Shown one piece after another: positions 2,066-27,013 of a stretch of 64,000 nucleotides of DNA. Position numbers and translations under genes: made by a program. The stretch is taken from positions 1 through 64,000 of the forward strand of contig NZ_JASHHX010000015.1 of the NCBI RefSeq assembly GCF_030056575.1. The letters run 5' to 3'. The stretch comes from Rhodoblastus sp. 17X3 (GTDB lineage: Bacteria; Pseudomonadota; Alphaproteobacteria; Rhizobiales; Beijerinckiaceae). The stretch's first letter is position 1. Every line of letters starts with the position of its first letter. Under the pieces are notes generated by a model. That model saw only the letters and a list, made by a program, of their open reading frames with translations, searched no databases and was not told where the DNA came from.

Positions 2066-2108
2066 GTTATGGTTGCCTCGGACCGCCGGCTTGTCGAGTG
2101 GGGAAATA

Positions 2109-5100
2109 ATGCTTCGAAGCAGCGCATATCGAATGATGGCAACGACAGCGCTGGCGCTCGTTCTACTGACGTGTTGGCTCGATTTGGAGAGCCGAGCTGA
2201 TGGTGGCGCTGGCGGAGGCTTCCTCGGAAGCGGCGGAGCAGGCGGCAGCGGATTTACGGGTAATTCAGGCAACTCCGGCGTCACAGATCCTTTTAACAGG
2301 GGCACCGGCGGGGGTGGCGGAGGCGCAGGTGGCGGGAACGGCGGAAACGGAGGGGCCAGCCCCTTGGGGGGAGCTGGGGGAGCAGGCTCTAGTGGCGGCG
2401 CCGGCGGCGCTGGTGGCGCCGCGACAAGCCCCGATGGAAAAGGCGGAGGCGCAGCCGACCGCGACGGTTTCGGTGGCGGCGGTGGCGGTGGCGGCGGCTA
2501 TAACGGCGCTAACGGCATCTTGACCGGCACCCCGCTTTTTGGCGGCGTCGGCGGCAATGGCGGCGACAGCGGTTTCGGTGGTGGAGGTGGGGGCGGAGCC
2601 GGCGGTTATGGGGCCGTTGTCACCGGAGCGGGCGCGATCGGCAATGCCAGCGCCTTAATCGGCGGTGATGGCGGCAACGGCGGCAACGCCGGCCTTCACG
2701 GTTCTGGCGGCAACGGCGGTGACGGCGGTATAGGCGTGCAGGTCACCATGAATGGGACGATATTAACCAACTCGGGCTCGTTCACCGGTGGGAATGGTGG
2801 CATCGGTGGTTTCGTCTTCTTCGGTGGTGGAGGCAATGGTGGCAACGGCGGAATTGGCGCGTTGATCGAGGGCAACGGGGCGACATTCGTAAATACTGGC
2901 ATCGTAGGCGGTGGAAATGGCGGCAAACAGGGTGCCTCTCCCAAAGGGGGGAACGGGATTGGCGGTAGCGGCGGTGTGGGCGTGCAGTTCTCCGGAAGCC
3001 AAGCAACATTCATCAATTCCGGTACGGTGATCGGCGGCAGCGGCGGCGTAAACATCAGCGGAATGGGACTTTCATCGCCGGGCAGTGACGGCGGCGTTGG
3101 CGTGTCATTCGTCTCGAACGGGGCAACCCTCTCAAATTTCGGAACGATCGTCGGCGGGACTGGCGGAGGCGGAATGTTGCGCAATGGCGATGGCGTCGCT
3201 GGCGTACTGTTCAAGGCCAGCGGCGCGGCATTCGCCAACTTCGGAATGGTCACAGGGGGCAATGGCAGCGGCGGCAACAGCAGCAACACCAGTGGCAGGA
3301 ACGGTGGCGCGGGCGGGATCGCTGCGCAATTCAACGCAAGCGAGGCGACCTTTGCCAATTCAGGTTCGATCGCTGGAGGTAACGGCGGCAGCGGCGGAGG
3401 TAATTTTTTCGCTGGCGTTGGCGATGGAGGCCCTGGTGGCATAGCCGTTCAGTTCGGAACGAGCGGGGCGACATTCACCAATTACGGCAAGGTCACCGGC
3501 GGCACCGGCGGTTCCGCGAGCATCGGCGCTTCGGGTCCGGGCCTGAGCGGCGCGGGCGGCGTCGGAATAGTCGGAAACGGCCTCGCAGTTGTTAACAGCG
3601 GCGCTATAAGTGGCGGACTCTCGGGCGACGGCCTAACGCGTGCGAACGCCATCACATTCACCGGTGGAACAAATGTCTTGGAGCTGTGGAGCAGGTCTAC
3701 AATAGTCGGCAATGTTGCCGCGTTCGGTGCGGGTGATAGTTTGCGATTGGGAGGATCAGGGAACGCGAGCTTCGACGTGAACCAAATCGGCTCGCAATAT
3801 ACTGGCTTCGGTAATTATCAGAAGATCGGCAACGGTGCCTGGACCCTCATCGGCACAAACACTCTTGCCATGCCTTGGAAAGTGCAAGACGGCGTGTTGG
3901 CGATCAATGGATCAATAACGAACGCTGCATTCACTGTGGTGGGCGGGATACTCGGTGGCAATGGAACAGTCTTCGGCATCGTCGTCCAAAGGGGCGGAAC
4001 TGTCGCTCCCGGCGTCCTCGCGCCTTATTCGACTCTCAGCATTGCAGGCGCGGCGAGCTTTGAGCCGGGCTCGATCTTCATCGTCAACGTGAATGCTGCC
4101 GGTCAGAATGACAAACTCGTTTCGGGCGGCGCAACGAATCTATCCGGCGCGAGCCTGCAAGTTGTCGCGGCCGGTGGCTCCTACACGCCTTCGACCCGGT
4201 ACACGCTGATTACCGCCGCCGGCGGGCTGCACGGCGCGTTTGCATCGTTTTCGACCACTGCGAACCTCGCGTTTCTTTCGCCGACCGTTACCTACGACGC
4301 CAATGACGTCTATCTCGGTTTCGTCCCGCGCGTCGGCTTTTCTTCGGTGGCGCTTACGGTCAACCAGTTCAGCACCGCGACCGCGCTGCAGGCGCAGCCC
4401 GCTGGTTCGACCCTGTATGATGCGATGATCGGCCAGACGGCATCCGGCGCCCGTCAAGCCTTCAACGCCTTGTCTGGCGAAATACACGCCAGCGCGATGT
4501 CGGCGGCCGTCGAGGATATGCGCTTGCCGCGCGAGGCCGTCCTCGACCGTCTCACAAGGCCGTATGGCGCGTTTCAGGCCAACGGGTCCACTCCCTTCAT
4601 GGCCAGCGCCGATTTCGGCGCCAAGGACCTCACGCACGTCTGGGCCACTTGGGGGCAGGCCTTCGGATCGAGCGGCCACATTTCCGGCGACGGCAACGCC
4701 GCCTATTTAAATGACAGCCTTGCGGGCTTCATCTTCGGCGCCGACGCCACGATCGACAGCCATTATCGCTTTGGCGTCGCGGCGAGCTACACCCATTCGG
4801 ACTTGAGCGATCCGCAGCGGTACAGTAGCGGCCGCATCGACAGCACGTCGATTGGCTTTTATGGCGGCACGAGCCAGCAGGCGCTTCAATTACGCGGCGG
4901 CGCCTTCTATACGTTCAATCGTTTCAACACGATGAGCAACGTCGCCTTCCCCGGCTTCTATACAAGCGACAGCTCCGGCTACAACGGCAACATCCAGCAA
5001 GCTTTCGGCGAGGCGGGCTGGCGGGTCGCGCTGCCTGACAGTTATAGCCGCTCGAGCTGGGTCGAGCCCTTCGCCGGGATGCTGGGCATGCGGCTTAATA

Positions 5101-5477
5101 CGGATTCCTTCTCGGAATCGGGTTTCGCGGCGGCGCTCAACGGCGCCTCCGGCGGCTATGGATTCGCCGCCTCGACGCTCGGCGTGCGCGCGGAGGGAAA
5201 CTTCCTTGAAAGCGCACCCGTCACGTTCCACTCCATGTTGGGCTGGCGTTATGTCTTTGGCGCGCTAAATCCGGCGGCATCTTTGGCGTTCGCCAGTGCG
5301 CCGACGGTTCCTTTCACCGTCTATGGCGCGCCGATTGCGCGTAACGCCCTCGCGGCGGAAGTCGGCGCGGACTGGCGCGTCGGCCCCACCGCAGTGCTGG
5401 GAATCTATTATTCGGGCCTGATTGGGGGAGGAACCAGCGACAACGCGGTGAAGGGCAAGTTCGAAATGGCGTTCTAG
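2109..5477 (+). CDS. Glycine-rich autotransporter (type V secretion)
   Basis: A 1122-residue protein. I chose the ATG at 2109 over an upstream TTG because it follows a purine-rich GGGGAAATA and opens a plausible signal peptide (hydrophobic TTALALVLLTCW). The passenger is extremely Gly-rich (GGNGG/GGAGG strings) up to about residue 220. It then carries about seven diverged repeats of 34-42 residues with the core A-T-F-x-N-x-G-x-[IV]-x-GG (cores near nt 2757, 2883, 3006, 3126, 3228, 3348, 3471), as in beta-helical passengers. A linker leads to a C-terminal autotransporter beta-barrel (about residues 840-1122) with alternating aromatic strands and a terminal Phe (F-E-M-A-F). Known for the family: the barrel inserts in the outer membrane and exposes the passenger. 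Function is probably adhesion; the substrate is unknown. Confidence 0.85.
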   Translation: MLRSSAYRMMATTALALVLLTCWLDLESRADGGAGGGFLGSGGAGGSGFTGNSGNSGVTDPFNRGTGGGGGGAGGGNGGNGGASPLGGAGGAGSSGGAGGAGGAATSPDGKGGGAADRDGFGGGGGGGGGYNGANGILTGTPLFGGVGGNGGDSGFGGGGGGGAGGYGAVVTGAGAIGNASALIGGDGGNGGNAGLHGSGGNGGDGGIGVQVTMNGTILTNSGSFTGGNGGIGGFVFFGGGGNGGNGGIGALIEGNGATFVNTGIVGGGNGGKQGASPKGGNGIGGSGGVGVQFSGSQATFINSGTVIGGSGGVNISGMGLSSPGSDGGVGVSFVSNGATLSNFGTIVGGTGGGGMLRNGDGVAGVLFKASGAAFANFGMVTGGNGSGGNSSNTSGRNGGAGGIAAQFNASEATFANSGSIAGGNGGSGGGNFFAGVGDGGPGGIAVQFGTSGATFTNYGKVTGGTGGSASIGASGPGLSGAGGVGIVGNGLAVVNSGAISGGLSGDGLTRANAITFTGGTNVLELWSRSTIVGNVAAFGAGDSLRLGGSGNASFDVNQIGSQYTGFGNYQKIGNGAWTLIGTNTLAMPWKVQDGVLAINGSITNAAFTVVGGILGGNGTVFGIVVQRGGTVAPGVLAPYSTLSIAGAASFEPGSIFIVNVNAAGQNDKLVSGGATNLSGASLQVVAAGGSYTPSTRYTLITAAGGLHGAFASFSTTANLAFLSPTVTYDANDVYLGFVPRVGFSSVALTVNQFSTATALQAQPAGSTLYDAMIGQTASGARQAFNALSGEIHASAMSAAVEDMRLPREAVLDRLTRPYGAFQANGSTPFMASADFGAKDLTHVWATWGQAFGSSGHISGDGNAAYLNDSLAGFIFGADATIDSHYRFGVAASYTHSDLSDPQRYSSGRIDSTSIGFYGGTSQQALQLRGGAFYTFNRFNTMSNVAFPGFYTSDSSGYNGNIQQAFGEAGWRVALPDSYSRSSWVEPFAGMLGMRLNTDSFSESGFAAALNGASGGYGFAASTLGVRAEGNFLESAPVTFHSMLGWRYVFGALNPAASLAFASAPTVPFTVYGAPIARNALAAEVGADWRVGPTAVLGIYYSGLIGGGTSDNAVKGKFEMAF

Positions 5478-10143: not shown

Positions 10144-10179
10144 CCATATATGGCGCCAACGGGAAGCAGGAAGCTTCCC
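10144..10179. promoter_or_regulatory. Palindrome and hairpin in the leader of the Memo operon
   Basis: The 285-base region between the divergent pncB and Memo genes contains a perfect 10-bp palindrome CCATATATGG at 10144-10153. Next comes a perfect 7-bp stem, GGGAAGC at 10161-10167 with GCTTCCC at 10173-10179. Both sit just upstream of the GAGGAA ribosome binding site and GTG start of the Memo gene. They are candidate operator and leader hairpin; no regulator is identifiable. Confidence 0.35.
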
Positions 10180-10199: not shown

Positions 10200-10994
10200 G
10201 TGATTCGTCCGCCCGCCGTCGCCGGGATGTTTTATCCCGCCGACGCCGTCATGCTTCGGCAAGCTGTGACGCAGCTGCTTGGACCATCGGGGTCGCCGGA
10301 AGAGGGCGAACGGCCCAAGGCTCTAATCGTTCCGCACGCCGGCTATGTCTATTCGGGCCGGGTCGCCGGGGCGGCCTATGCGAGGGTGCTTCCCTACGCG
10401 GAAAACATTCGGCGCGTGATCTTGCTCGGCCCCGCACACCGGGCGCCGGTCCGTGGATTGGCGCTGCCCGAGGCCGACCGCTTCGCGACGCCCCTCGGCG
10501 AGGTTTCGATTGACCAGGACGCGGTTCGCCGACTTGCTGCGACGCCGCGGGTGGCGGTGAGCGCCGCCGCGCACGCCCTCGAACATTCGCTCGAAGTCCA
10601 ATTGCCCTTTCTGCAGAGCATCCTGCGCGATTTTACCCTGGTCCCGCTGGCCGTCGGCGATGCGACGGCGGAAGAAGTCGCCGAGGCGCTCGATATCCTG
10701 TGGGGCGGGCCCGAAACCCTGATTGTGATCAGTTCCGACCTGTCGCATTACCTACCCTACGCCATGGCCCGGCGAACGGATCAAGACACGATGGAAAGAA
10801 TCCTGCGCGGCGAGTTGCTTCACAGCCATAAGCAGGCCTGCGGCGCCTTGCCGATCAACGGGCTGCTGCTGGCGGCGCGCCGGCGGCGGCTGACGCCGAA
10901 GCTCATATCCCATTGCAATTCCGGCGACACTGCCGGCGACAAGCAAAGGGTCGTCGGTTATGCCGCCATCGAATTTTCGGAACGCCATGACTGA
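10200..10994 (+). CDS. Memo-family protein (AmmeMemoRadiSam system protein B)
   Basis: A 264-residue Memo-family protein (COG1355), homologous to human MEMO1. It starts at GTG 10200 (GAGGAACAAGGATCC upstream) with the family opening I-R-P-P-A-V-A-G-M-F-Y-P. Putative metal-site residues are visible: His46 in P-H-A-G-Y, His80 in G-P-A-H, His129 in L-E-H-S-L, His183 in D-L-S-H-Y and the His238-Cys239 pair before N-S-G-D. MEMO1 is structurally related to non-haem-iron LigB-type dioxygenases, but no enzymatic reaction is established. It overlaps the AMMECR1 gene by 8 bases, and the radical SAM gene overlaps in turn, so the three are translationally coupled. The joint function is unknown. Confidence 0.9.
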   Translation: MIRPPAVAGMFYPADAVMLRQAVTQLLGPSGSPEEGERPKALIVPHAGYVYSGRVAGAAYARVLPYAENIRRVILLGPAHRAPVRGLALPEADRFATPLGEVSIDQDAVRRLAATPRVAVSAAAHALEHSLEVQLPFLQSILRDFTLVPLAVGDATAEEVAEALDILWGGPETLIVISSDLSHYLPYAMARRTDQDTMERILRGELLHSHKQACGALPINGLLLAARRRRLTPKLISHCNSGDTAGDKQRVVGYAAIEFSERHD

Positions 10995-11571
10995 AGCCGC
11001 CGTCACTCTCGAAGATCGCGGCCCCGTTCTGCTCGGCCTCGCCCGGGCGGCCATTGCGAGCGCCCTGGGCCGGGTAGGCCGCGCCGATCGTTCCGCGCCC
11101 TGGCTGCGCGAAAAGGGCGCCTGTTTCGTCACCCTGACCCAAGACGGCAATCTCAGCGGCTGCGTCGGCAGCATCGAGGCGCATCGTTCGCTGCTGGAAG
11201 ATGTGACGGCCAATGCGCGCGCGGCGGCCTTCGCCGATCCACGCTTTCCGCCGCTCGGGGGAGAGGCGCTGGAGCGCGCCCGAATCGAGGTTTCGCTGCT
11301 GTCGCCGACGCAGCAGCTGCACGTATGTTCTGAAGCGGAAGCGTTACAGCAGATCAGGCCGCATCTCGACGGCCTCGTGCTGCAGTGGGGACGCCATTGC
11401 GGCGCCTTTCTGCCGCAGGTCTGGGAAGCTCTTCCCGATCCCAGCGACTTTCTCGCCCATCTGAAGCGCAAAGCGGGATTGCCCCACGATTTCTGGGTGA
11501 ACGACCTCCGCCTTTACCGATATTGCGTCACCAAATGGAGCGAGCCTGAAACCGGCCAGGTAGAGCAATAA
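10987..11571 (+). CDS. AMMECR1-domain protein (AmmeMemoRadiSam system protein A)
   Basis: A 194-residue AMMECR1-family protein. I chose the ATG at 10987, which overlaps the Memo stop, rather than an in-frame ATG at 10960 inside the Memo gene. The diagnostic motif L-S-G-C-V-G-S (the family LRGCIG motif) is at about residues 57-63. D-P-R-F-P-P-L and the C-terminal W-x-L-P-D-P follow as usual. Human AMMECR1 is associated with a contiguous gene deletion syndrome; its biochemistry is unknown. The bacterial protein is found beside Memo and a radical SAM enzyme, exactly as here. The last codons overlap the next gene (TAATG), arguing for one mRNA and probably one complex or pathway. Confidence 0.9.
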   Translation: MTEAAVTLEDRGPVLLGLARAAIASALGRVGRADRSAPWLREKGACFVTLTQDGNLSGCVGSIEAHRSLLEDVTANARAAAFADPRFPPLGGEALERARIEVSLLSPTQQLHVCSEAEALQQIRPHLDGLVLQWGRHCGAFLPQVWEALPDPSDFLAHLKRKAGLPHDFWVNDLRLYRYCVTKWSEPETGQVEQ

Positions 11572-12647
11572 TGTCAGAATTTCACCCCGCCCATTACTGG
11601 CGCAAGACGGAAGACGGCCGCATCCAGTGCGACCTCTGCCCGCGCGACTGCAAATTGCACGAGGGCCAGCGCGGCGCCTGTTTCGTACGGATGCGCGATG
11701 GCGACGAAATGGTTCTGACGACCTATGGACGCTCGTCGGGATTCTGCATCGACCCGATCGAGAAAAAGCCGCTCAATCATTTCTATCCGGGTTCGAGCGT
11801 GCTGTCCTTCGGCACGGCGGGCTGCAACCTCGCATGCAAGTTCTGCCAGAACTCGGACATCAGCAAGGCGCGCGACATGGATCGGCTGATGGACGAGGCC
11901 TCGCCCGAAGCCATTGCCGAAGCCGCCGCCCGCTATGGCTGCCGCAGCGTCGCGTTCACCTATAACGATCCGGTGATCTTCCTCGAATACGCCATGGATG
12001 TGGCCGACGCCTGCCATGCCCGCGGCATCAAAACAGTCGCCGTGTCAGCCGGCTATATGCACGATCAGGCGCGGCGCGATTTTTATGCGAAGATCGACGC
12101 CGCCAATATCGACCTCAAGGGCTTCACCGATGATTTTTATTTCAAGCTGACGAGCGCCCATCTGCAGCCCGTGCTCGAAACGCTGCTTTATCTGAAGCAT
12201 GAGACCGACGTCTGGCTGGAGCTCACTACACTGCTGATTCCTGGAAAGAACGATTCCAACGAGGAGTTGGCAGCATTGTCGCAATGGGTGGCGCGCGAAC
12301 TGGGGCGGGACGTTCCGCTTCATTTCTCGGCGTTCCATCCGGATTACAAGATGCTCGACACGCCGCCGACGCCCCCCGAAACTTTGCGCAGCGCGCGAAA
12401 AATCGCCATGGAGGCGGGCCTCGACCATGTCTATCTCGGCAATGTCCACGACGCCGCCGGCGACACGACCCTCTGCCCTAACTGCCACGAGCCCCTGATC
12501 GTGCGCGACTGGTATCAGATCAAACGTCACGCCTTGGCGCAGGGTGGGTTCTGTCCGCGCTGCGGCGTCGCCATAGCCGGCCATTTCGACGAATCCATCG
12601 GGAATTTCGGTCGCCGACGGATTCCTGTCGCCATCGGAAGGCGTTGA
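11571..12647 (+). CDS. AmmeMemoRadiSam system radical SAM enzyme
   Basis: A 358-residue radical SAM protein of the PflA-activase-like group (COG1180). Cys85, Cys89 and Cys92 form the C-x3-C-x2-C cluster motif (G-C-N-L-A-C-K-F-C). An N-terminal Cys-rich knuckle (Cys20, Cys23, Cys27, Cys37) and a C-terminal zinc-ribbon-like pair (C-P-N-C and C-P-R-C-G) flank the TIM-barrel core. This three-part layout is characteristic of the AmmeMemoRadiSam enzyme. Known for the superfamily: reductive SAM cleavage produces a 5'-deoxyadenosyl radical. The substrate here is not known; the AMMECR1 and Memo partners may be the modified proteins or may act on the product. The start ATG overlaps the AMMECR1 stop codon. 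Confidence 0.9.
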   Translation: MSEFHPAHYWRKTEDGRIQCDLCPRDCKLHEGQRGACFVRMRDGDEMVLTTYGRSSGFCIDPIEKKPLNHFYPGSSVLSFGTAGCNLACKFCQNSDISKARDMDRLMDEASPEAIAEAAARYGCRSVAFTYNDPVIFLEYAMDVADACHARGIKTVAVSAGYMHDQARRDFYAKIDAANIDLKGFTDDFYFKLTSAHLQPVLETLLYLKHETDVWLELTTLLIPGKNDSNEELAALSQWVARELGRDVPLHFSAFHPDYKMLDTPPTPPETLRSARKIAMEAGLDHVYLGNVHDAAGDTTLCPNCHEPLIVRDWYQIKRHALAQGGFCPRCGVAIAGHFDESIGNFGRRRIPVAIGRR

Positions 12648-15316: not shown

Positions 15317-16930
15317 TCAACCCAGGTTGAGTCTTCCCCAATTGAGTCTCGCGACGGTCGGCGCGAGGGTTTCGACCACGAAGCCATCTCCATATTTGCG
15401 CCCTTCGCTTTTTCCCGCGTGGCCGGTGAGGGCGTCATGAACTTCCTCGTTGATCCCCGAATTCCGGCACAGGTCCTTGTACCAATGCCGGAACGAATGA
15501 TTTGGCGAGACGCGCTTGTCCTTGATGCCGAGGTTTACGCGAACGATGCGGCAAACACGCTTGGACGCGGTACCGCCACGATGGCCATAGGTGTCCGGCT
15601 TCATGTCGGGAAACAAAGGCTCGCCAGGCTTCTTGCCGGCGACGAATTTCATGAAGCCCTCCGCGATGAGGAATTCCGGAATCGGCACCGTACGTCGTGA
15701 GGACTCCGTTTTCACGCTCTTGTCCTCGCCGTCGATATTCTCTTCTTCCTCGTCGTCGTCGTCGTCGAAAAGGTCGGTGATCTCGATGCACGCAATGTTT
15801 CGGATCATTTTGACGTCGTCGCGGTTGATCTGCGCGGCCTCGTTGACCCTAACGCCCATGGTCGCTTCGATCCAGGGGATCCAGCGTGCGCCGCCTTTCT
15901 TGGAGCGCGCGGTGAGAAGGATCAGCTTGACCTCCTCATCGGTATAGGACCGTTTTTTCTTCGTGTTTTTCTTCTTGATGAGCAGCCGCACCTTGGCGAA
16001 TGGGTTGACGGCGATCTTATGGTTCTCGAGGGCCCACCCGAACAGGGCCTTCAAGGCATGGATATCGTTGAGGACGGATTTTGGGCTGTTTCCTTCCTCG
16101 AGCCGCTTGGCCTTCCATTTCGAGGCGTCCTCTGGCGTCGCGGAGCCAAGGTCCCGACCATTCAGGTATTTTTCAAATTTGCGCAGCTTCTGGGTGAAGG
16201 TGTCGACCGTCTTTGGGACAGGTTTGCGTTCGTTCTTCCAGCCATTGATCAGTGACTCGAGCGTCAGAGGCTCGTAGGAAATCCCGTTCGGGGACGCGGC
16301 GACCGATGAAGTTGGGTTCTCTGGCTCGCTGGGCGTTTCGACGATCTTGCCGGCGTGGCGGTCCTTCCAAAGCTGGATACATTCCGCCCGCGTGTGCAGG
16401 AAGCCGATCGCAACGCGTTCATAGGCCCTGGAGGAGGGGTCAAGGCGAAGACCGCGCGCTCCCAGATAGGCGTCCATCGTGTCCCGATTGGCTGGGGACA
16501 GGGCGCGGCCGCGCGCTATCCCATCGGCCGCGAATTGTTCGATGTCCTGGAGGACCTCGGTGAGGAGGTCATATTGATGGTCGGGCAAACCATTGTCCTG
16601 GCCGCCAAGCCCGCGAAGCCGGATTTGTTCGTCCGACCAGAGGAGATGCCTGCGATAGCCAGCAAGGATCGCGGCGATCTCGGCCTCGCTGAGTTCGGCG
16701 CGCGTCTGGGGTTGTGGCGATTTGGCCGATAGCTGGGCCTCAGCCTTGGCGAATTCGCGCTCCCAGAACAGGGCGCGTTCGGCGGCCTTGCGCCGCGCGA
16801 TCTTGGGGTCGCGCTCGCCGAGGCTTTCGCGAATGACCTTTTGGCCCAAGATCGCCTGAATCTTGGCTGGCACGCGCCGCCTGAAATAATAGACGGCGCC
16901 ACGGCGCACGATATTGCTCACGAGACTCAT
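15317..16930 (-). CDS. int: Tyrosine recombinase (phage/island integrase)
   Basis: A 537-residue site-specific recombinase. I chose the ATG at 16930 over an upstream GTG at 16954. The N-terminus (YYFRRRVPAKI) matches the DUF6538-type arm domain, then a core-binding domain (about residues 210-300) and the catalytic domain follow. The tyrosine-recombinase residues are visible: Arg in G-V-R-V-N-E-A, His-x-x-Arg in H-S-F-R-H, His in T-G-H-A-G and the Tyr in R-K-Y-G-D-G. It therefore appears intact. An unusual acidic run of Asp and Glu (about residues 390-400, from a GAC/GAG-type tract) interrupts the catalytic domain between strands. It sits 90 bases from the 3' end of tRNA-Ser, the standard place for an island integrase. 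Confidence 0.85.
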   Translation of the reverse strand: MSLVSNIVRRGAVYYFRRRVPAKIQAILGQKVIRESLGERDPKIARRKAAERALFWEREFAKAEAQLSAKSPQPQTRAELSEAEIAAILAGYRRHLLWSDEQIRLRGLGGQDNGLPDHQYDLLTEVLQDIEQFAADGIARGRALSPANRDTMDAYLGARGLRLDPSSRAYERVAIGFLHTRAECIQLWKDRHAGKIVETPSEPENPTSSVAASPNGISYEPLTLESLINGWKNERKPVPKTVDTFTQKLRKFEKYLNGRDLGSATPEDASKWKAKRLEEGNSPKSVLNDIHALKALFGWALENHKIAVNPFAKVRLLIKKKNTKKKRSYTDEEVKLILLTARSKKGGARWIPWIEATMGVRVNEAAQINRDDVKMIRNIACIEITDLFDDDDDEEEENIDGEDKSVKTESSRRTVPIPEFLIAEGFMKFVAGKKPGEPLFPDMKPDTYGHRGGTASKRVCRIVRVNLGIKDKRVSPNHSFRHWYKDLCRNSGINEEVHDALTGHAGKSEGRKYGDGFVVETLAPTVARLNWGRLNLG

Positions 16931-17019
16931 GTCCGAAACACACCACTGGGTCACAGTTGAGGCCGCAAACCAGCTGTCTTTCCAGCAGTTTAAGGAAAAT
17001 CAAAGTCTCGAGGCAAGGG

Positions 17020-17109
17020 TGGCGGAGAGGGAGGGATTCGAACCCCCGATACGGTTGCCCGTATGCCGCATTTCGAGTGCGGTGCATTCGACCACTCTGC
17101 CACCTCTCC
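17020..17109 (-). tRNA. tRNA-Ser(CGA)
   Basis: The minus strand reads as a 90-nucleotide type II tRNA. The 7-bp acceptor GGAGAGG pairs with CCTCTCC, discriminator G and encoded CCA follow. The anticodon stem CCGCA/TGCGG encloses loop CTCGAAA (anticodon CGA), the long variable arm (ATACGGG...CCGTAT) is typical of serine tRNAs, and the T arm has GGTTCGAAT. The adjacent integrase suggests the 3' end serves as an attachment site. Confidence 0.95.
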
Positions 17110-17857: not shown

Positions 17858-18130
17858 ATGGCTCACAAAAAGGCTGGCGGTTCATCCCGCAACGGGCGCG
17901 ACTCGGAAGGTCGGCGCCTTGGCGTGAAAAAGTTCGGCGGCGAGAATGTCGTGGCCGGCAACATCATCGTGCGTCAGCGCGGCACCAAGTGGCATCCGGG
18001 CGCCAATGTCGGCATCGGCAAGGATCACACCCTGTTCGCCCTCGTAGCCGGCAAGGTGTTGTTCAAGACCCAAGGGCAGCGTTCCGTCATTACGGTTACG
18101 GAAGCCCCGGCGGCCCAGGCCGCGGAATAA
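17858..18130 (+). CDS. rpmA: 50S ribosomal protein L27
   Basis: A 90-residue bL27 with the invariant start [15 protein letters not shown], which places the N-terminus near the peptidyl transferase centre, and the signature [10 protein letters not shown]-x-N-V-G. No N-terminal propeptide of the Firmicutes type is present. The ribosome binding site GGAGCGGAAAA precedes the ATG. It lies 71 bases after rplU and is followed by a strong terminator at 18295. Confidence 0.97.
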
Positions 18131-18294
18131 CGAGGTCGCGAATTCTCGGGACCTCCAAGGCGAAAGCCCCCAGGATGGTCCCGAAGTCGTGGCCCCGACA
18201 TGCGGTCGGAAGGCAGCGAGACGACAAAAGGACACGTTCCAGCGCGAAGAAGGTCGCATTCTTCCGCCAGGATCGCATCCGGAGCCCAATGCTC

Positions 18295-18323
18295 AAGGGG
18301 GAACGGCGCCGTTTCCCCTTTTT
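18295..18323 (+). terminator. Rho-independent terminator after rpmA
   Basis: AAGGGGGAACGGC at 18295-18307 is nearly perfectly complementary to GCCGTTTCCCCTT at 18308-18320 (one G-T pair). It is followed by more T (to 18323). It would end the rplU-rpmA transcript before the acetyltransferase gene. Confidence 0.75.
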
Positions 18324-18343
18324 GCTTTGACCGGAGCCTTTTC

Positions 18344-18952
18344 ATGTTTCCAGATATCGCACGCGACGACGTTTTCCGTCTCGAAACGCGGCGGCTGTGG
18401 CTGCGCTGGCCGCGCCAGTCCGACGCGCCGGCCCTTTCCGTTCTAGCGAGCGAATGGGATGTGGCGCGGGCGACCGCGATGATCCCGCATCCCTATCGAC
18501 CCGAGGACGCCGACCGCTTCATCTTGGCGGCGCGCGCCGCCAACGCCCGCGGCGCGGCCTTGCGCTTCGGCCTGACGCTCAAGTCCTTTCCGCGCAAGTT
18601 CGTCGGCATGATCGGCGTCGAGCCGGATGAGGCTGGCCCGCGGCTCGGCTTCTGGCTGGGGCGGCCCTTTTGGGGAAGCGGCTTGATGAGTGAAGCCGTC
18701 GAGGCGACGAGCGACGTGTTTTTCCGGTTGACGGAGGGCGACGAACTCGCCGCTTTCATCCTGCCGGAAAACGCCGCCTCGCGCGCCGTGCTGGAAAAAG
18801 CCGGTTTCGTCGACGAGGGCCGGATCGAAGCCGGGCCGGGCCGCCATTCTGACAGCCCGGTCGCGCGGCTGGTTCTGCGACGGCGCGATTGGCAGGGGTT
18901 TGCGGGCCCCGGCTTGCGGCCCGGGCTCGCCTCCGCTAGAGCCTTGTCTTAA
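18344..18952 (+). CDS. GNAT-family N-acetyltransferase
   Basis: A 202-residue RimJ/RimL-like acetyltransferase. It starts at ATG 18344 with CCGGAG upstream. The N-terminal L-E-T-R-R-L-W-L-R opening is typical of the family; G-F-W-L-G-R-P-F-W-G-S-G-L-M-S-E-A carries the acetyl-CoA pyrophosphate-binding loop, and N-x-A-S-R-A-V-L-E-K-A-G-F completes the fold. A GNAT gene between rpmA and obgE is a common arrangement in Rhizobiales, so it may act on a ribosomal or translation-related protein, but the substrate is unknown. Confidence 0.85.
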   Translation: MFPDIARDDVFRLETRRLWLRWPRQSDAPALSVLASEWDVARATAMIPHPYRPEDADRFILAARAANARGAALRFGLTLKSFPRKFVGMIGVEPDEAGPRLGFWLGRPFWGSGLMSEAVEATSDVFFRLTEGDELAAFILPENAASRAVLEKAGFVDEGRIEAGPGRHSDSPVARLVLRRRDWQGFAGPGLRPGLASARALS

Positions 18953-19015
18953 AACGCAGGGCGCGAAAAAGACATTTGCGGCCCGCGCCCTTCCGGCGCG
19001 GGCGAGCCGGATTGA

Positions 19016-21240
<2,225 letters not shown>

Positions 21241-21309
21241 CATTGGCGGCGACGCCGCCCTCTGATAGAAATCGCGATAGAAATCGCGGCTGCGATTGAG
21301 AGAACGGCG

Positions 21310-22602
21310 ATGGAAAATCTGAAAATTGTCGAAGGCGAGGGCGGCGATCTCGACGTCCTGATGAATGCGATAGGCCGGAAGGCGCGCAAGGCCGCGCGGA
21401 TTCTGGCGCTCGCGCCGCCGGAGCAGAAAAGCCTCGCCTTGCGCGCCGCAGCCACGATTTTGCGGGCGCGCGTGAAGGATCTGCTCGACGCCAATGCGCT
21501 CGACATGGCCAATGCGCGGACGAAAAATCTCGCGGCCTCCATGCTCGACCGGCTGATGCTCGACGACAAGCGCATCGCCGGCATGGCGCAGAGCCTCGAC
21601 GACATCGCCGATCTGCCCGATCCGGTCGGCCGCGTGCTGGAGACATTCGAGCGCCCCAACGGGCTGCGCATCGCGCGGGTGGCCACGCCGCTCGGCGTTG
21701 TCGGCGTCATTTTTGAAAGCCGTCCCAATGTCACCGCCGACGCAGGCGCGCTTTGCCTGAAGGCCGGCAACGCCGCCATTCTGCGCGCGGGGTCGGAGAG
21801 CTTCCATTCCTCGCGGCTGATCCACGCCTGCCTTGTCGCGGGCCTGAAGGAAGCGGGCCTGCCGGAGGACGGCGTCGCCCTGATTCCCACGCGCGACCGC
21901 GCCGCAGTGGGCGCTATGCTCACCGGTCTGAATGGCGCCATTGACGTGATCGTGCCGCGCGGCGGCAAGAGCCTGGTGGCGCGGGTGCAGGCCGAGGCGC
22001 GCGTGCCGGTCTTCGCCCATCTCGAAGGCATCGTGCATGTCTATGTCGACGCCGAAGCCGATCTCGCCAAGGCGGAGAAGATCCTGCTCAACGCCAAGAT
22101 GCGCCGCACCGGCATTTGCGGCGCGGCCGAGACCTTGCTGGTGGACTGCGCGGGCGCGGACCGCCTGCTGGCGCCGCTGGTGCGGCTGCTGCTCGACGCC
22201 AATTGCGAGGTGCGCGGCGACGAAGCGACCCGCAAGGTCGACGCGCGCGTAAAACCTGCGGCGGAAGAGGATTGGTCGACCGAATATCTCGAAGCCATCA
22301 TCGCGGCGAAGCTGGTGGACGGCGTGCAGGGCGCCATCGACCATATCGAGACCTATGGCTCGCATCACACCGATTGCATCGTGACCGAGAACAAGGAAAA
22401 GGCCGAGAAATTCCTGCGCGAGGTGGATTCGGCCATCGTGATCCACAACGCCTCGACGCAATTCGCCGATGGCGGCGAATTCGGCTTCGGCGCCGAGATC
22501 GGCATCGCCACCGGGCGGATGCATGCGCGCGGGCCGGTCGGCGTGGCCCAGCTGACCTCGTTCAAATATGTCGTGCATGGCGAGGGGCAGACGCGGGCAT
22601 GA
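21310..22602 (+). CDS. proA: Gamma-glutamyl phosphate reductase
   Basis: A 430-residue aldehyde-dehydrogenase-superfamily enzyme that reduces gamma-glutamyl phosphate to glutamate semialdehyde with NADPH, acting directly after ProB. Typical blocks are visible: [38 protein letters not shown] with the catalytic Cys, and [20 protein letters not shown] near the end. Length is normal. It lies 69 bases behind proB; the nadD frame begins before or just after its stop. Confidence 0.96.
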
Positions 22603-22618
22603 CTCCAGCCAAAATTCC

Positions 22619-23212
22619 GTGAGCGCGCCGCCTTTTGCGCGCGGCATGCGCATTGGACTGTTCGGCGGGTCGTTCAATCCGCCACATGCGGGCCATGCTC
22701 TGGTCTGCGCCATCGCGCTGCGCCGGCTGGGGCTGGATCGCATCTGGCTGATGGTGTCGCCCGGCAATCCGCTGAAATCGCGCGAGGGCCTGCCGCCGCT
22801 TGGCGAGCGAATGGCGCAAGCGCGAAAAATCATGCGTGATCCGCGCATCGTCGTCACGGATTTTGAAGCCGGAATCGGCGCGGCTTTTTCCTATCAGACC
22901 GTCGATTACCTGCGTCGCGCCTGTCCGGGCGTGCATTTCGTCTGGATCATGGGGGCGGATAATCTCGGCGCCTTTTTTCGCTGGCGGCGTTGGCGGGAAA
23001 TCGCGCGAGCCATGCCCATTCTGGTCATTGACCGGCCCGGCTCGACCCATCGCGCCGTGCATGGTCTGGTGGGCGGCTGGTTCGCGCGTTACCGCCTGCC
23101 TGAATCGCAGGCGAAAACGCTCCCGCTGCGCCGCCCTCCGGCGCTGATCGTGCTGCATGGCCCGCGCTCGCCGTTGTCGTCAACGCAATTGCGGGCGAAG
23201 AAGCGCGGCTAG
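22619..23212 (+). CDS. nadD: Nicotinate-nucleotide adenylyltransferase
   Basis: A 197-residue nucleotidyltransferase converting NaMN and ATP to NaAD. It has the G-G-S-F-N-P-P-H-x-G-H motif (T/HxGH-type active site), W-I-M-G-A-D-N-L and the C-terminal S-S-T-Q-L-R. A GTG at 22619 gives a short extension (V-S-A-P-P-F-A-R-G) like those seen in alphaproteobacterial homologues; the alternative ATG at 22646 begins directly at R-I-G-L-F-G-G. The choice is uncertain because neither has a clear ribosome binding site. With pncB at 8.8-9.9 kb, two steps of NAD salvage are in the window. Confidence 0.93.
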   Translation: MSAPPFARGMRIGLFGGSFNPPHAGHALVCAIALRRLGLDRIWLMVSPGNPLKSREGLPPLGERMAQARKIMRDPRIVVTDFEAGIGAAFSYQTVDYLRRACPGVHFVWIMGADNLGAFFRWRRWREIARAMPILVIDRPGSTHRAVHGLVGGWFARYRLPESQAKTLPLRRPPALIVLHGPRSPLSSTQLRAKKRG

Positions 23213-23309
23213 CTGATCCCGCGTCGTCATGGCGACATGTTTGTCGCCCCGATTTGGCCCGAGAGATGCTTGGGCGGCCAACGCAACCGCAATCGCAATG
23301 GGAGCGACA

Positions 23310-23714
23310 ATGGCGCGCGTTTTGACTGCCTATCTCACGAAAGCCGACGTCCCGTCGCGCAAGGCGCTGCAAGGCGCGCTCGATCCGCTCGGCTTCAGGG
23401 TCGTCGTCGACGACGATTATGCGCCTTTGAAAAGCAAGGGCTATGTCCCCTGTGCGCTGGACGGCGAGGACGCCGGCTTCGACCTGCGCTTTCAGGAGGT
23501 CGAGGCCGAAACGCGTGCGAGATTCGCGCTTGGCGAGGATTCGGTCGCGATGGCCTTCCGCTGGGGCGGCGATCCGCGCGAGGAACTGGCCGCTCTGGCT
23601 GTGGCCGTGGCGCTCGCGCAGCAGTTCGGGGCGGTCGTCGAGGAGCCCACGGGGGCGGCGCTGTCCGTGGATGAATTGCTGGCGAAAGCACGCAAGGCCG
23701 CCAGTTCGCTTTAG
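23310..23714 (+). CDS. Conserved-looking hypothetical protein
   Basis: A 134-residue soluble, acidic protein that I do not recognise. The ATG at 23310 is preceded by GGGAGCGA; an upstream TTG/ATG frame would add unlikely sequence. It shows alternating beta and alpha character: L-T-A-Y-L-T-K start, F-D-L-R-F-Q-E-V strand, then an Ala-rich helix (LAALAVAVALAQQFGAV) followed by E-E-P-T-G. No signal peptide, transmembrane segment or cysteine pair is seen. It is inserted between nadD and rsfS, which are normally adjacent, and is convergent with the serine protease gene. Function unknown. Confidence 0.65.
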   Translation: MARVLTAYLTKADVPSRKALQGALDPLGFRVVVDDDYAPLKSKGYVPCALDGEDAGFDLRFQEVEAETRARFALGEDSVAMAFRWGGDPREELAALAVAVALAQQFGAVVEEPTGAALSVDELLAKARKAASSL

Positions 23715-23739
23715 CCCGGCTCGAGGCGCGCGAGGAAAC

Positions 23740-24519
23740 TCATTTTGCGTTTGACAGTTCGGCCACGCGCGCCGCGAATTGCTTCGATGCGCAAGCGATT
23801 CCGAAGCGCTCGCTCGTGTCGATCCGCGTCGCCAACAAGGACATGATGCCGATGACGACCGGCGCGCCCGAGATTTCGGCGAGGATGGGCGAGCCGGAAT
23901 AGCCGAGATTCAGCAGGCACTGGAACGTGAACGTCCCATCTTTCGGTCCGGCGGCGATGGCGCAGTTGCGATGGACGGAAGGGAGATAGGGGCGGTCCTT
24001 GCCATAGCCCGCCTGCAACGCCGTATTGGCCTTGGCGACCTCTTGAAACGCCTCGGCGCTCAACGCCTGAACGGCGACGGGCTTGATATCGAGCGGCTCC
24101 TGCAAAATGATCAACGCCCAGTCGTTGACCGCGGATTTTTCCGCCCGGACATAATCCGGCGAAACCTCGATCCGCGCGGCCGGGGAATGGGAGCCGGGGA
24201 CGCCTCTGTTGAGCCCGGCCAGGAAATGCACATTGGCCGGCGGCGCCTGCTTGTCGTCGACATGGACGCAATGCGCGGCGGTCAGGACCAGTCGCGGTCC
24301 GACGAGAGTTCCGGTGCATTGCTGGAGACGGGCGATCCCCCAGGTGGTCATGACCGTTCCGATTGCCGAAAGCGGCCATTTCGACGGGTCGCCGATGTCG
24401 CCGTAGTGAGCCGGGCCGCCCGGATTCGGCGCCGGGGCGACTTGCGCCCGTCCGGGCGGGGCAAGGGCGAACAGCCAGGCCGCAAAAACGAGCATTTCAA
24501 ACCGACGCCTGGCGATCAT
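23740..24519 (-). CDS. Secreted trypsin-like serine protease (S1 family)
   Basis: A 259-residue exported protease. I chose the ATG at 24519 because GGGAG lies 7 bases upstream; it opens a basic N-region and hydrophobic core ending in A-R-A (signal peptide). The catalytic triad is recognisable: His in L-T-A-A-H-C-V, Asp in V-N-D-W-A-L-I and Ser in G-Y-S-G-S-P-I. The Ser motif is G-x-S-G-S-P rather than G-D-S-G-G-P, as in V8/glutamyl-endopeptidase-like bacterial enzymes. It should act in the periplasm or outside. It is on the opposite strand to the surrounding conserved cluster and so probably an insertion. Substrate unknown. Confidence 0.8.
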   Translation of the reverse strand: MIARRRFEMLVFAAWLFALAPPGRAQVAPAPNPGGPAHYGDIGDPSKWPLSAIGTVMTTWGIARLQQCTGTLVGPRLVLTAAHCVHVDDKQAPPANVHFLAGLNRGVPGSHSPAARIEVSPDYVRAEKSAVNDWALIILQEPLDIKPVAVQALSAEAFQEVAKANTALQAGYGKDRPYLPSVHRNCAIAAGPKDGTFTFQCLLNLGYSGSPILAEISGAPVVIGIMSLLATRIDTSERFGIACASKQFAARVAELSNAK

Positions 24520-24725
24520 TACCGGCTCCCGCGCAACAGCCTGTCTCATCCTGCGCGGAAAACCGGGTTCACGCAGCCTGAATCGCGCCAAAGGTTGATT
24601 CTTCGCGCGCGCGGCTCCATTTTAAGCGTATGTAGCAAGCTCAGCGCAGCGAAGCGCAAGAAGCGAGGATTTTTCAACTGACCCGCAAAGAAATTTCAGG
24701 AGCTGAGCCGCAGCCGACAACCGGA

Positions 24726-25085
24726 TTGGACCCGGCGGCTCTGGATCCGCAGATGCGCGCCGTTCTCACGGCGCTGGACGATCTCAAGGCCGAGGAGATC
24801 GTCTCGATCGACCTTGCCGGAAAGACCTCGATCGCCGACTGGATGATCGTCGCCACCGGGCGCTCGACCACGCAGGTCAGCGCTCTGGCCGACCGGGTCG
24901 TCAGGGCGCTCAAGGACGCCGGCGCGCCGACGCCTGCGGTCGAGGGCCTTCCCGCCTGCGACTGGGTGCTGATCGACGCCGGCGACCTCATCGTCCATCT
25001 GTTCCGCCCCGAGGTGCGCCAGTTCTACAATCTGGAAAAGATGTGGGGCGTCGACCGGCCGGGCGAGAAGCGGGCCGAGGCGTGA
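24726..25085 (+). CDS. rsfS: Ribosomal silencing factor RsfS
   Basis: A 119-residue RsfS/Iojap protein. It binds L14 and blocks subunit joining in starvation. Diagnostic segments are the [10 protein letters not shown] opening, [13 protein letters not shown], and the C-terminal [17 protein letters not shown] with F-Y-N-L-E-K-M-W. The start is uncertain: TTG at 24726 is used here, and no ATG or GTG lies in frame just upstream although the frame is open with plausible residues back past 24680. The rlmH gene follows after 13 bases, as in most bacteria. Confidence 0.93.
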
Positions 25086-25098
25086 GCGTCTTTTCGCA

Positions 25099-25581
25099 AT
25101 GAAATTGCTGCTGCTCGCAATCGGGCGCCTGAAGGCGGGCCCCGAGCGCGAACTCGTGGCGCGCTATGCCGACCGCTGCGTTGCGGGCGGCCGCAAGATC
25201 GGCTTCACCGGCTTTGAAATGCGCGAGATCGACGAGTCGCGCGCGCGCCGGCCGGAGGACCGCAAGGCGGAGGAGGCGGCCGCGCTCGCCGCCTCGCTGC
25301 CGCAGGGCGCGCGAAAAATCTGCCTCGACGAGCGCGGCAGGACCATGACCAGCGAGGAGTTTTCCCGCAAATTGGGCGAGTGGCGCGACGCGGGCGCGCC
25401 GGCTTGCGCCCTCGTCATCGGCGGGCCGGATGGGCTCGATCCCGCCTTTCGGGACAAGGCCGATCTGACCCTTGCCTTCGGCGCGATGACCTGGCCTCAC
25501 CAAATCGTGCGCGCATTGGCGGCCGAACAGCTGTTTCGCGCATTGACCATTCTCTCCGGCCATCCCTATCATCGCGTGTAA
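25099..25581 (+). CDS. rlmH: 23S rRNA pseudouridine-1915 N3-methyltransferase RlmH
   Basis: A 160-residue SPOUT methyltransferase. The trefoil-knot SAM site is seen as V-I-G-G-P-D-G-L and the C-terminal signature as [17 protein letters not shown], followed by the closing H-P-Y-H-R that contributes to catalysis. It methylates the pseudouridine at position 1915 of helix 69 on 70S ribosomes. It is directly behind rsfS and is probably cotranscribed. Length is normal. Confidence 0.95.
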
Positions 25582-25666
25582 GCCGTTCACGCGAAAGGCG
25601 TTACGAAAGCCAGCGGCCCTGTGCGAAGGGGCCTCCGAAAGAACTGGTCCGGAGCGAACCCGCTGC

Positions 25667-27013
25667 ATGATGATGGATGACAGTTTTGAACTTGCCCCCT
25701 GCGGGCTGGCCGTGCTCGCGCCCGACGGGTCCTTCACGCGCGTCAATCGCGCCTTTCGCGATTGGACCGGCTATTCCGAAGCCGAATTGCTCGGCGGCAA
25801 GCGGTTCGCCGATCTGATCGACGGGGATGGAAAGTCCTTTTTTTCTGATCTCTCCGCCGCCCTGGCCCAATGCGAGGAAATCGCGGATGTTTTCCTGCTC
25901 TGGCGCGGCGCTTCGGGGCAGGCGCTCCCGGCCTATGTCCATTTCGCCTTGCGGCGCGGCGGCGTCGACGCGCCCGCGGCGATCCATCTCGCGGCGGCCC
26001 GCGGCGAGCGTCGCGCCCTTCAGGAGGCCGAACTTGAACGCGGCAAGCACGCGGCTGAACAATTGGCGGCGATTGTCGCCAATTCCGGCGACGCCATCGT
26101 CAGCGTCGACACGCGCGGCGCGGTGCTCAACGCCAATCGCGCCTTCAGCGAGATATTCCAATATGAGCCAGCGGAGATCGCCGGGGCGAACCTGGCCAAT
26201 CTGATCGTGCCGGAGGAAGACCGCGCGCAATATGAAGAGAAGCTGCATGAGTCCTTTTCGGGACCGTCCAGGGCGCGAATCGTGCGGCGGCGGCGCAAGG
26301 ACGGCGTCGGAATGGATTTCTCCCTTTCCACCGCGCCGATCCGCGATGAGAGCGGCGATGTGGCGGCCATTTCAATGATCTATCGCGACATCGCGCCGCT
26401 GACCCGCGCCGCGGAACATATCGAATTCCTGTTGCGCGAGGTCAATCACCGTTCCAAGAACCTGCTCGCCGTGGTGCAGGCCGTGGCCCGCCAGACGGCG
26501 CGGCTGTCGCCTTCGCCCGACGAATTCATCGAGAGCTTCATGGCGCGCCTCTCGGCGATCGGCTGCAGCCATGATCTTCTTGTTTCGCGCGACTGGCGCG
26601 GGGTCCAGATCGCCGACCTGACCCGCAACCAGTTTGGCCAACTCGACGACGAGGCGCGCGAGCGGATCGCAGTGTCCGGCGATTTCGTGGAAATCAATCC
26701 GCGCGCGGCGGAATCCTACGGCCTCGCGCTGCATGAGCTTTCGACCAACGCCGTCAAGCATGGCGCGCTTTCGGCGCCCGGCGGCAGCGTCGAACTTCGC
26801 TTCAGCCTCGATCGCGACGGCAAGTTCTATACGCTGACCTGGCGCGAGCGCGGCGGACCCGCCGTGCGGGCGCCGGCGCGCTCCGGCTTTGGCGGAACCG
26901 TGCTCACCCGCATGGCGCCGCTGGCGATCCAGGGCGAAAGCGTGCTGGACTTCACGCCGGAGGGCCTGAGATATCGTCTTTCCGCGCCTCTTGCGGAAAT
27001 TGTGATGGGCTGA
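25667..27013 (+). CDS. PAS-domain HWE-family sensor histidine kinase
   Basis: A 448-residue cytoplasmic kinase without transmembrane segments. Two PAS domains (about residues 6-110 and 130-240; G-D-A-I-V-S-V-D...A-N-R-A-F-S marks the second) precede an HWE kinase core. The H box is F-L-L-R-E-V-N-H-R-S-K-N-L-L, the N box N-A-V-K-H-G-A-L, and the diagnostic W-R-E is in L-T-W-R-E-R-G-G-P. HWE kinases are enriched in Rhizobiales and often control the general stress response or light/redox responses; the ligand of these PAS domains cannot be told. No response regulator adjoins it, so it is an orphan inserted between rlmH and the envC-like gene. Confidence 0.88.
   Translation: MMMDDSFELAPCGLAVLAPDGSFTRVNRAFRDWTGYSEAELLGGKRFADLIDGDGKSFFSDLSAALAQCEEIADVFLLWRGASGQALPAYVHFALRRGGVDAPAAIHLAAARGERRALQEAELERGKHAAEQLAAIVANSGDAIVSVDTRGAVLNANRAFSEIFQYEPAEIAGANLANLIVPEEDRAQYEEKLHESFSGPSRARIVRRRRKDGVGMDFSLSTAPIRDESGDVAAISMIYRDIAPLTRAAEHIEFLLREVNHRSKNLLAVVQAVARQTARLSPSPDEFIESFMARLSAIGCSHDLLVSRDWRGVQIADLTRNQFGQLDDEARERIAVSGDFVEINPRAAESYGLALHELSTNAVKHGALSAPGGSVELRFSLDRDGKFYTLTWRERGGPAVRAPARSGFGGTVLTRMAPLAIQGESVLDFTPEGLRYRLSAPLAEIVMG

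Follow-up and report, generated by a model that had tools for sequence, protein, structure and literature searches.

An apparently maintained AmmeMemoRadiSam operon in Rhodoblastus sp. 17X3, its probable betaproteobacterial origin and a possible maturation role for its radical SAM enzyme

The amr operon and its conserved residues

The analysed DNA (the window) is a stretch of 64,000 nucleotides of Rhodoblastus sp. 17X3, contig NZ_JASHHX010000015.1, in which three plus-strand genes follow each other closely behind a candidate leader element:

10161 to 10179, plus strand: candidate hairpin GGGAAGC-AGGAA-GCTTCCC in the leader of amrB, proposed from its likeness to elements in the related loci L135, L136 and L032
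10200 to 10994, plus strand: amrB, Memo protein of 264 aa, starting with GTG (TIGR04336, PF01875, MEMO1 fold)
10987 to 11571, plus strand: amrA, AMMECR1 protein, 194 aa (TIGR04335, PF01871)
11571 to 12647, plus strand: amrS, radical SAM enzyme, 358 aa (TIGR04337, PF04055, PFL-activase fold match)

These coordinates agree with the single operon described in an earlier, sequence-only reading of this DNA: amrB and amrA overlap by 8 bases, with the ATG of amrA at 10987 standing before the Memo stop, and amrA and amrS overlap by 1 base, with the ATG of amrS at 11571 inside TAATG. The AMMECR1 start is most likely the ATG at 10987; a longer frame opens at 10960. All three proteins score above the curated NCBIfam cut-offs, which bears out their identification as AmmeMemoRadiSam: Memo with 275.4 bits (TIGR04336, cut-off 26), AMMECR1 with 186.4 bits when scanned from 10960 (TIGR04335, cut-off 99), and AmrS, encoded directly downstream of amrA, with 630.6 bits (TIGR04337, cut-off 220). 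Pfam agrees for all three (PF01875 for Memo, PF01871 for AMMECR1 and PF04055 for radical SAM), and the genome (99.86% complete, 68 contigs) contains a single match each for Memo, AMMECR1 and AmrS. We are nearly certain that the operon represents the known AmmeMemoRadiSam system, in a complete and apparently maintained copy. The proposal that it is an undescribed system has to be given up, as NCBI already names its parts (amrB, amrA and amrS) and a passage of PMC7159879 cites the “Memo-Ammecr1 systems” of Burroughs et al. 2019. Among the literature matches listed, none gave a biochemical reaction for AmmeMemoRadiSam, and the three proteins had no match among PADLOC defence systems at E 0.001.

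Elements like that at 10161 to 10179 stand equally far upstream in L135, L136 and L032, and none was found in L033 or L034. In L135 an A-T pair replaces a G-C pair in a compensating change, and the loop is shorter by one base. The element may be a hairpin, or equally a DNA palindrome or a product of chance. As a general feature of such operons the leader hairpin was rejected, since hairpins are not enriched there: 11 of the 99 upstream regions had one, while the share was 6.1% in shuffled sequences and 10.1% further upstream. The FNR-like pattern TT[GA]-N8-[TC]AA, sought upstream of the operons, matched in L032 only.

Before residues were counted, rows shorter than 85% of the query length and the window duplicates L001 and L022 were dropped. 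In Memo, H46, H80, H129, D180 and H183 are conserved in 106/106 rows, as is Cys214, the sole strongly conserved cysteine of the protein, while position 239 is Arg in 64 and Cys in 35 of the 106 rows. According to an excerpt of PMC11081632, the iron or copper ligands of human MEMO1 are H49, H81 and C244, whereas H192 and D189 do not coordinate the metal, with H192 lying near it. When the window protein was aligned by phmmer with the MEMO1 PDB chain (chain index equal to the published number minus 3, counted from H49, so that chain C241 is C244), C244 paired with Cys214, in a local stretch that is weak and marked “?”, and His183 aligned with H192. We therefore predict from the alignment that H46, H80 and Cys214 are the counterparts of the MEMO1 ligands. 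Of the four metal residues suggested in the sequence-only reading (His46, His80, His183 and Cys239), the first two stand, and the last two fall: His183 matches a residue that does not coordinate metal in the MEMO1 work excerpted above, and the place of Cys239 is taken by Cys214.

The Memo model (mean pLDDT 92.5) superimposes on MEMO1 with Z 33.5 (rmsd 1.9, 255 aligned residues, 29% identity). The window protein thus shares with human MEMO1 (PDB 7kq8, 3bcz) its fold and, as predicted, its set of His, His and Cys ligands, although the metal has been shown in MEMO1 and its site in the window protein is derived from alignment. The next fold matches were LigB-type extradiol dioxygenases (Z 13-18), and this related fold would suit a Memo that is a true O2-dependent extradiol dioxygenase, for which AmrS prepares an aromatic substrate. 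However, the LigB-type iron ligand set of His, His and Glu (or Asp) was not found here, because Cys214 occupies the third position in the alignment with C244; LigB-type enzymes have Glu where MEMO1 (PMC11081632) and the window Memo have Cys. The same paper states that MEMO1 had no dioxygenase activity on the substrates tried by its authors. Furthermore, in PMC13386939 AMMECR1 is the most important of seven anaerobe-indicating Pfams, with a share of 50.66% among 1,293 anaerobic bacteria and of 3.38% among 4,227 aerobic ones, which argues against an enzyme that uses O2, and Memo was present in our three control genomes of known anaerobes (Thermotoga maritima, Methanocaldococcus jannaschii and Methanosarcina acetivorans). 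We consider the dioxygenase explanation quite improbable.

The AMMECR1 family motif is LRGC[IV]G, and the window copy reads LSGCVG. L56, G58, C59 and G61 are invariant in 112/112 rows, so the motif reported earlier as retained is present in its Leu, Gly, Cys and Gly positions, but not in Arg57, which is Arg in 111/112 rows and Ser only in the window copy. The two added genus relatives do not deviate at this position. The human disease mutation p.G177D falls in the corresponding LRGCIG, as stated in an extract of PMC5502304.

These changes raise the question of a window copy that is losing function, AMMECR1 first. Near-invariant AMMECR1 columns carry two changes, R57S and E94A, the former in no other row, while Memo and AmrS show no change at their near-invariant columns. 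Pairwise dN/dS between the window and five alphaproteobacterial relatives, with dS of 0.7-1.2 that is partly saturated and a ratio that averages both lineages, was 0.15-0.25 for Memo, 0.25-0.36 for AMMECR1 and 0.09-0.15 for AmrS, which suggests that the operon is under constraint, although a recent loss would still be compatible with pairwise ratios. As R57S is also possibly a wrong assembly base, we hold loss of function to be unlikely.

Co-occurrence, gene neighbours and origin

In a sample of 150 genomes of the phylum, in which contig breaks lower the adjacency counts, all three families occurred together in 59 of the 62 genomes with any member. Memo was found in 60 genomes, AMMECR1 in the same 60 and AmrS over its cut-off in 61, with Memo and AMMECR1 adjacent or fused in 56/60. 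The exceptions were two genomes with AmrS alone (G022 and G127, the latter with a divergent protein of 295.8 bits) and one fragmented bin (G109) with Memo and AMMECR1 and no AmrS over the cut-off. The association of AmrS with Memo had a Fisher's p of 3.5e-38, with kinship ignored. The three genes are therefore not separable in most genomes of the phylum, and the co-occurrence expected of one system was found. Outside the phylum, two controls had broken sets, namely Haloferax volcanii (AMMECR1 without Memo) and Thermus composti (Memo without AMMECR1). The earlier statement that the proteins are made in fixed order and ratio goes beyond the data, as a one-strand tandem triple was seen in 28/60 carrier genomes.

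The arrangement was more regular among 80 loci taken from genome contigs and chosen for likeness to the window AmrS: the gene order of the window operon recurred in 71 of the 74 loci with at least 1700 bases upstream (not in L040, L058 and L106). No fourth gene was common to all 74, ORFs shorter than 70 aa being uncalled. In 31/73 betaproteobacterial-type loci (L035-L111; e.g., L067:9086-9748) amrS is immediately followed, on its own strand, by an alpha/beta-hydrolase (DLH-like) gene, and in 17/65 loci a phosphoribosyltransferase gene lies within 3 kb. Such neighbours would suit a sequential small-molecule pathway, in which one metabolite, e.g., a nucleotide base or isoprenoid, would be worked on by each of AmrS, Memo and AMMECR1; Burroughs et al. 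are said to have proposed nucleotide base or isoprenoid contexts in 2019. The window operon differs from these relatives, as the operons of the window and of L032-L034 were found to have neither neighbour gene close by, which weakens a pathway that we nevertheless regard as possible. Conversely, the NAPRTase and Usp neighbours in the window were not found beside related operons. A search for a conserved fourth neighbour in the lineage of the window found none: window ORFs of at least 90 aa from positions 1 to 40000, outside the operon, had no match in the 14-15 kb around the L135 and L136 operons, and in L034 the two matches were to window genes far from the operon.

For the history of the operon, an AmrS tree of 126 rows was built by a quick method with midpoint root and without L120-L122. 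In it the window falls together with two genus relatives and L032-L034 (99*), and this group nests in a clade of 84 rows (98*), mostly betaproteobacterial where named, with the intervening forks unstarred; mislabelled bins are possible in the tree, e.g., the Chitinophaga-labelled L063. AmrS of other family members (L126-L130) lies outside the 109-row clade (98*) that holds the window. AmrS over the cut-off was present in 9/149 family genomes and in 3/6 genus genomes of that sample, and the surroundings of the operon differ among three genus members. Taken together, the tree, the patchy presence in the family and the differing surroundings point to horizontal acquisition, and we believe that the operon was very probably acquired from Betaproteobacteria.

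Several minor observations concern mobility. A minus-strand tyrosine-integrase-like gene (PF02899, DUF6538) adjoins tRNA-Ser at 17020-17109, in a region spanning 15317-17109. G+C per kb is 0.53-0.65 to the left of this region and 0.65-0.69 over 18001 to 26000. A genomic island containing the amr operon may end at this region; no direct repeat of at least 12 bases to the tRNA-Ser region was found elsewhere in the window. Six plasmid records in all had an AmrS match, and on one of them, the 709-kb Ideonella plasmid NZ_CP088082.1 (L146), amrB and amrS have an arsenic resistance cluster a few genes away. A Memo homologue with 47% identity is present in the phage record MT836786.1, an unannotated 8.8-kb sequence labelled Bacteriophage sp., which may be a bacterial contig.

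AmrS, its fused partners and a possible mechanism

The cysteines C85, C89 and C92 of AmrS (CX3CX2C), named in the sequence-only reading as cluster ligands, are Cys in 122/122 rows, and the two further Cys-rich clusters are likewise real: C20/C23/C27/C37 (C20, C27 and C37 in 122/122 rows, C23 in 119/122) and C302/C305/C328/C331 (C302, C328 and C331 in 122/122, C305 in 114/122). The AmrS model has a mean pLDDT of 72.8, with residues 1-10, 20-56, 82-89 and 93-101 below 50, and it therefore lends no support to the N-terminal cysteines or the first of the radical SAM cysteines. The closest solved structure is pyruvate formate-lyase (PFL) activating enzyme (PDB 3cb8, 3c8f; E 8.9e-13), one entry of which contains a peptide substrate, and AmrS also matches this enzyme in sequence.

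A radical SAM barrel and CX3CX2C motif in common with PFL-activating enzyme are what would be seen if AmrS were a glycyl radical enzyme activase. Unlike that enzyme, AmrS has the extra N- and C-terminal Cys motifs, and it reaches 61.6 bits with the PFLA model, below the cut-off of 231.75. The glycyl-radical domain PF01228 was not found in the window's genome and was present in just 11/61 AmrS-positive genomes of the phylum sample, which makes activase function very hard to credit.

Some genomes contain a second AmrS (L112-L119) that is 41-45% identical to that of the window. Seven Memo-AMMECR1 fusions (L112-L118) share a contig with the second-class AmrS; six adjoin it directly, the seventh (L114) lies about 10 kb off, and all seven have a hydrophobic signal-like N-terminal segment (KD14 2.09-2.66), as judged by plain hydropathy and not by a signal-peptide predictor. 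The low-identity fusions L143, L167, L169 and L172 also have a hydrophobic N-terminus (KD14 2.06-2.75), three of them in genomes without second-class AmrS over the cut-off (G061, G057 and G002). Of the other 24 scored rows, 23 were at or below 1.29, including the low-identity fusion L170, and L148 was at 2.09; 29 of the 64 rows, among them L171 and L144, were unscorable. Selenocysteine in the second-class radical SAM genes was considered and rejected, because the apparently internal TGA is best read as an ordinary stop, the sequences diverging immediately behind it. In addition, L120-L122 encode divergent AmrS-like proteins, 34-36% identical and with a C-terminal extension, and no Memo or AMMECR1 match was found in the fetched stretch.

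To hypothesize, Memo and AMMECR1 would form one working unit, and AmrS, with its PFL-activase-like barrel, would act on a polypeptide of this unit and mature it in the cytoplasm, the most plausible site being the invariant GC in the LRGC[IV]G loop of AMMECR1 or its vicinity. Once matured, the unit would carry out a reaction independent of O2, with a metal (iron in MEMO1) probably bound by Memo through two His and a Cys. We put forward this maturation mechanism tentatively; the data are compatible with the earlier suggestion of a radical SAM modification of, or with, the two partners. The pairing of second-class AmrS with signal-like fusions (7/7) favours partner maturation by the radical SAM enzyme, and the co-occurrence of the three families, the adjacency or fusion of Memo and AMMECR1 and the invariance of four AMMECR1 loop residues speak for it as well. 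It is already known that anaerobic sulfatase maturases, which are radical SAM enzymes, modify their substrates in the cytoplasm before export, and by analogy a cytoplasmic AmrS could modify the fusions with hydrophobic N-termini before they are exported. The PFL-activase fold and published peptide-related contexts also led us to this view: as described in passages of the respective papers, peptide-processing systems include related radical SAM proteins (PMC7159879), and Memo-like proteins are fused to RiPP recognition elements (PMC12710340). A bolder version, which we consider rather doubtful, is that AmrS matures the LRGC loop into a protein-derived cofactor or radical, with the second branch working outside the cytoplasm after export of the fusion.

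The same excerpted contexts would fit AmrS modifying a separate small peptide or protein, whose product Memo and AMMECR1 process or use. The lack of a fourth gene common to the 74 loci argues against this, although a short precursor of less than 70 aa could escape ORF calling, and we find it fairly unlikely.

Several results argue against maturation of the Memo-AMMECR1 unit. To our knowledge, humans and yeast have Memo and AMMECR1 and no AmrS; the sets are broken in Haloferax volcanii, Thermus composti and G109; and the hydrophobic fusions of G061, G057 and G002 lack a second-class AmrS, while L170 lacks the segment. The small-molecule pathway is nearly as likely as the maturation mechanism, and the hydrolase and phosphoribosyltransferase neighbours fit it. 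The fold neighbours of AmrS include QueE, MoaA, TYW1 and viperin, enzymes that act on small molecules or RNA; on the other hand, signal-like fusions would put a membrane between the steps of such a pathway.

The O2-independent part of the maturation mechanism is favoured by the prevalence of AMMECR1 in anaerobes and by the Memo of the three anaerobic controls, and is weakened by the scarcity of the anaerobe marker NRDD in AmrS-positive genomes. It occurred in 13/150 phylum genomes, of which one was among the 61 AmrS-positive genomes (G027) and 12 among the other 89, so NRDD does not support a link of the system with anaerobes within the phylum. In the family, NRDD was present in 3/149 genomes, only one of them (G238) AmrS-positive, and it was not found in the window's genome; a search of that genome for photosynthesis genes gave no Photo_RC match.

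As noted earlier, two of the three proteins have human homologues, MEMO1 and AMMECR1; MEMO1 acts in cancer-cell iron handling (PMC11081632), and AMMECR1 is involved in a developmental disorder (p.G177D; PMC5502304). Bacteria may be the place to find the original reaction of Memo and AMMECR1, with the signal-like N-termini of the fusions and the invariant LRGC loop as concrete places to seek a modification. What is new here is modest: the residue corrections, the probable transfer, the exceptional residue at AMMECR1 position 57 and the clue from the fusions. Elsewhere in the window, positions 2073-5477 encode a glycine-rich autotransporter of 1134 aa with a C-terminal beta-domain.
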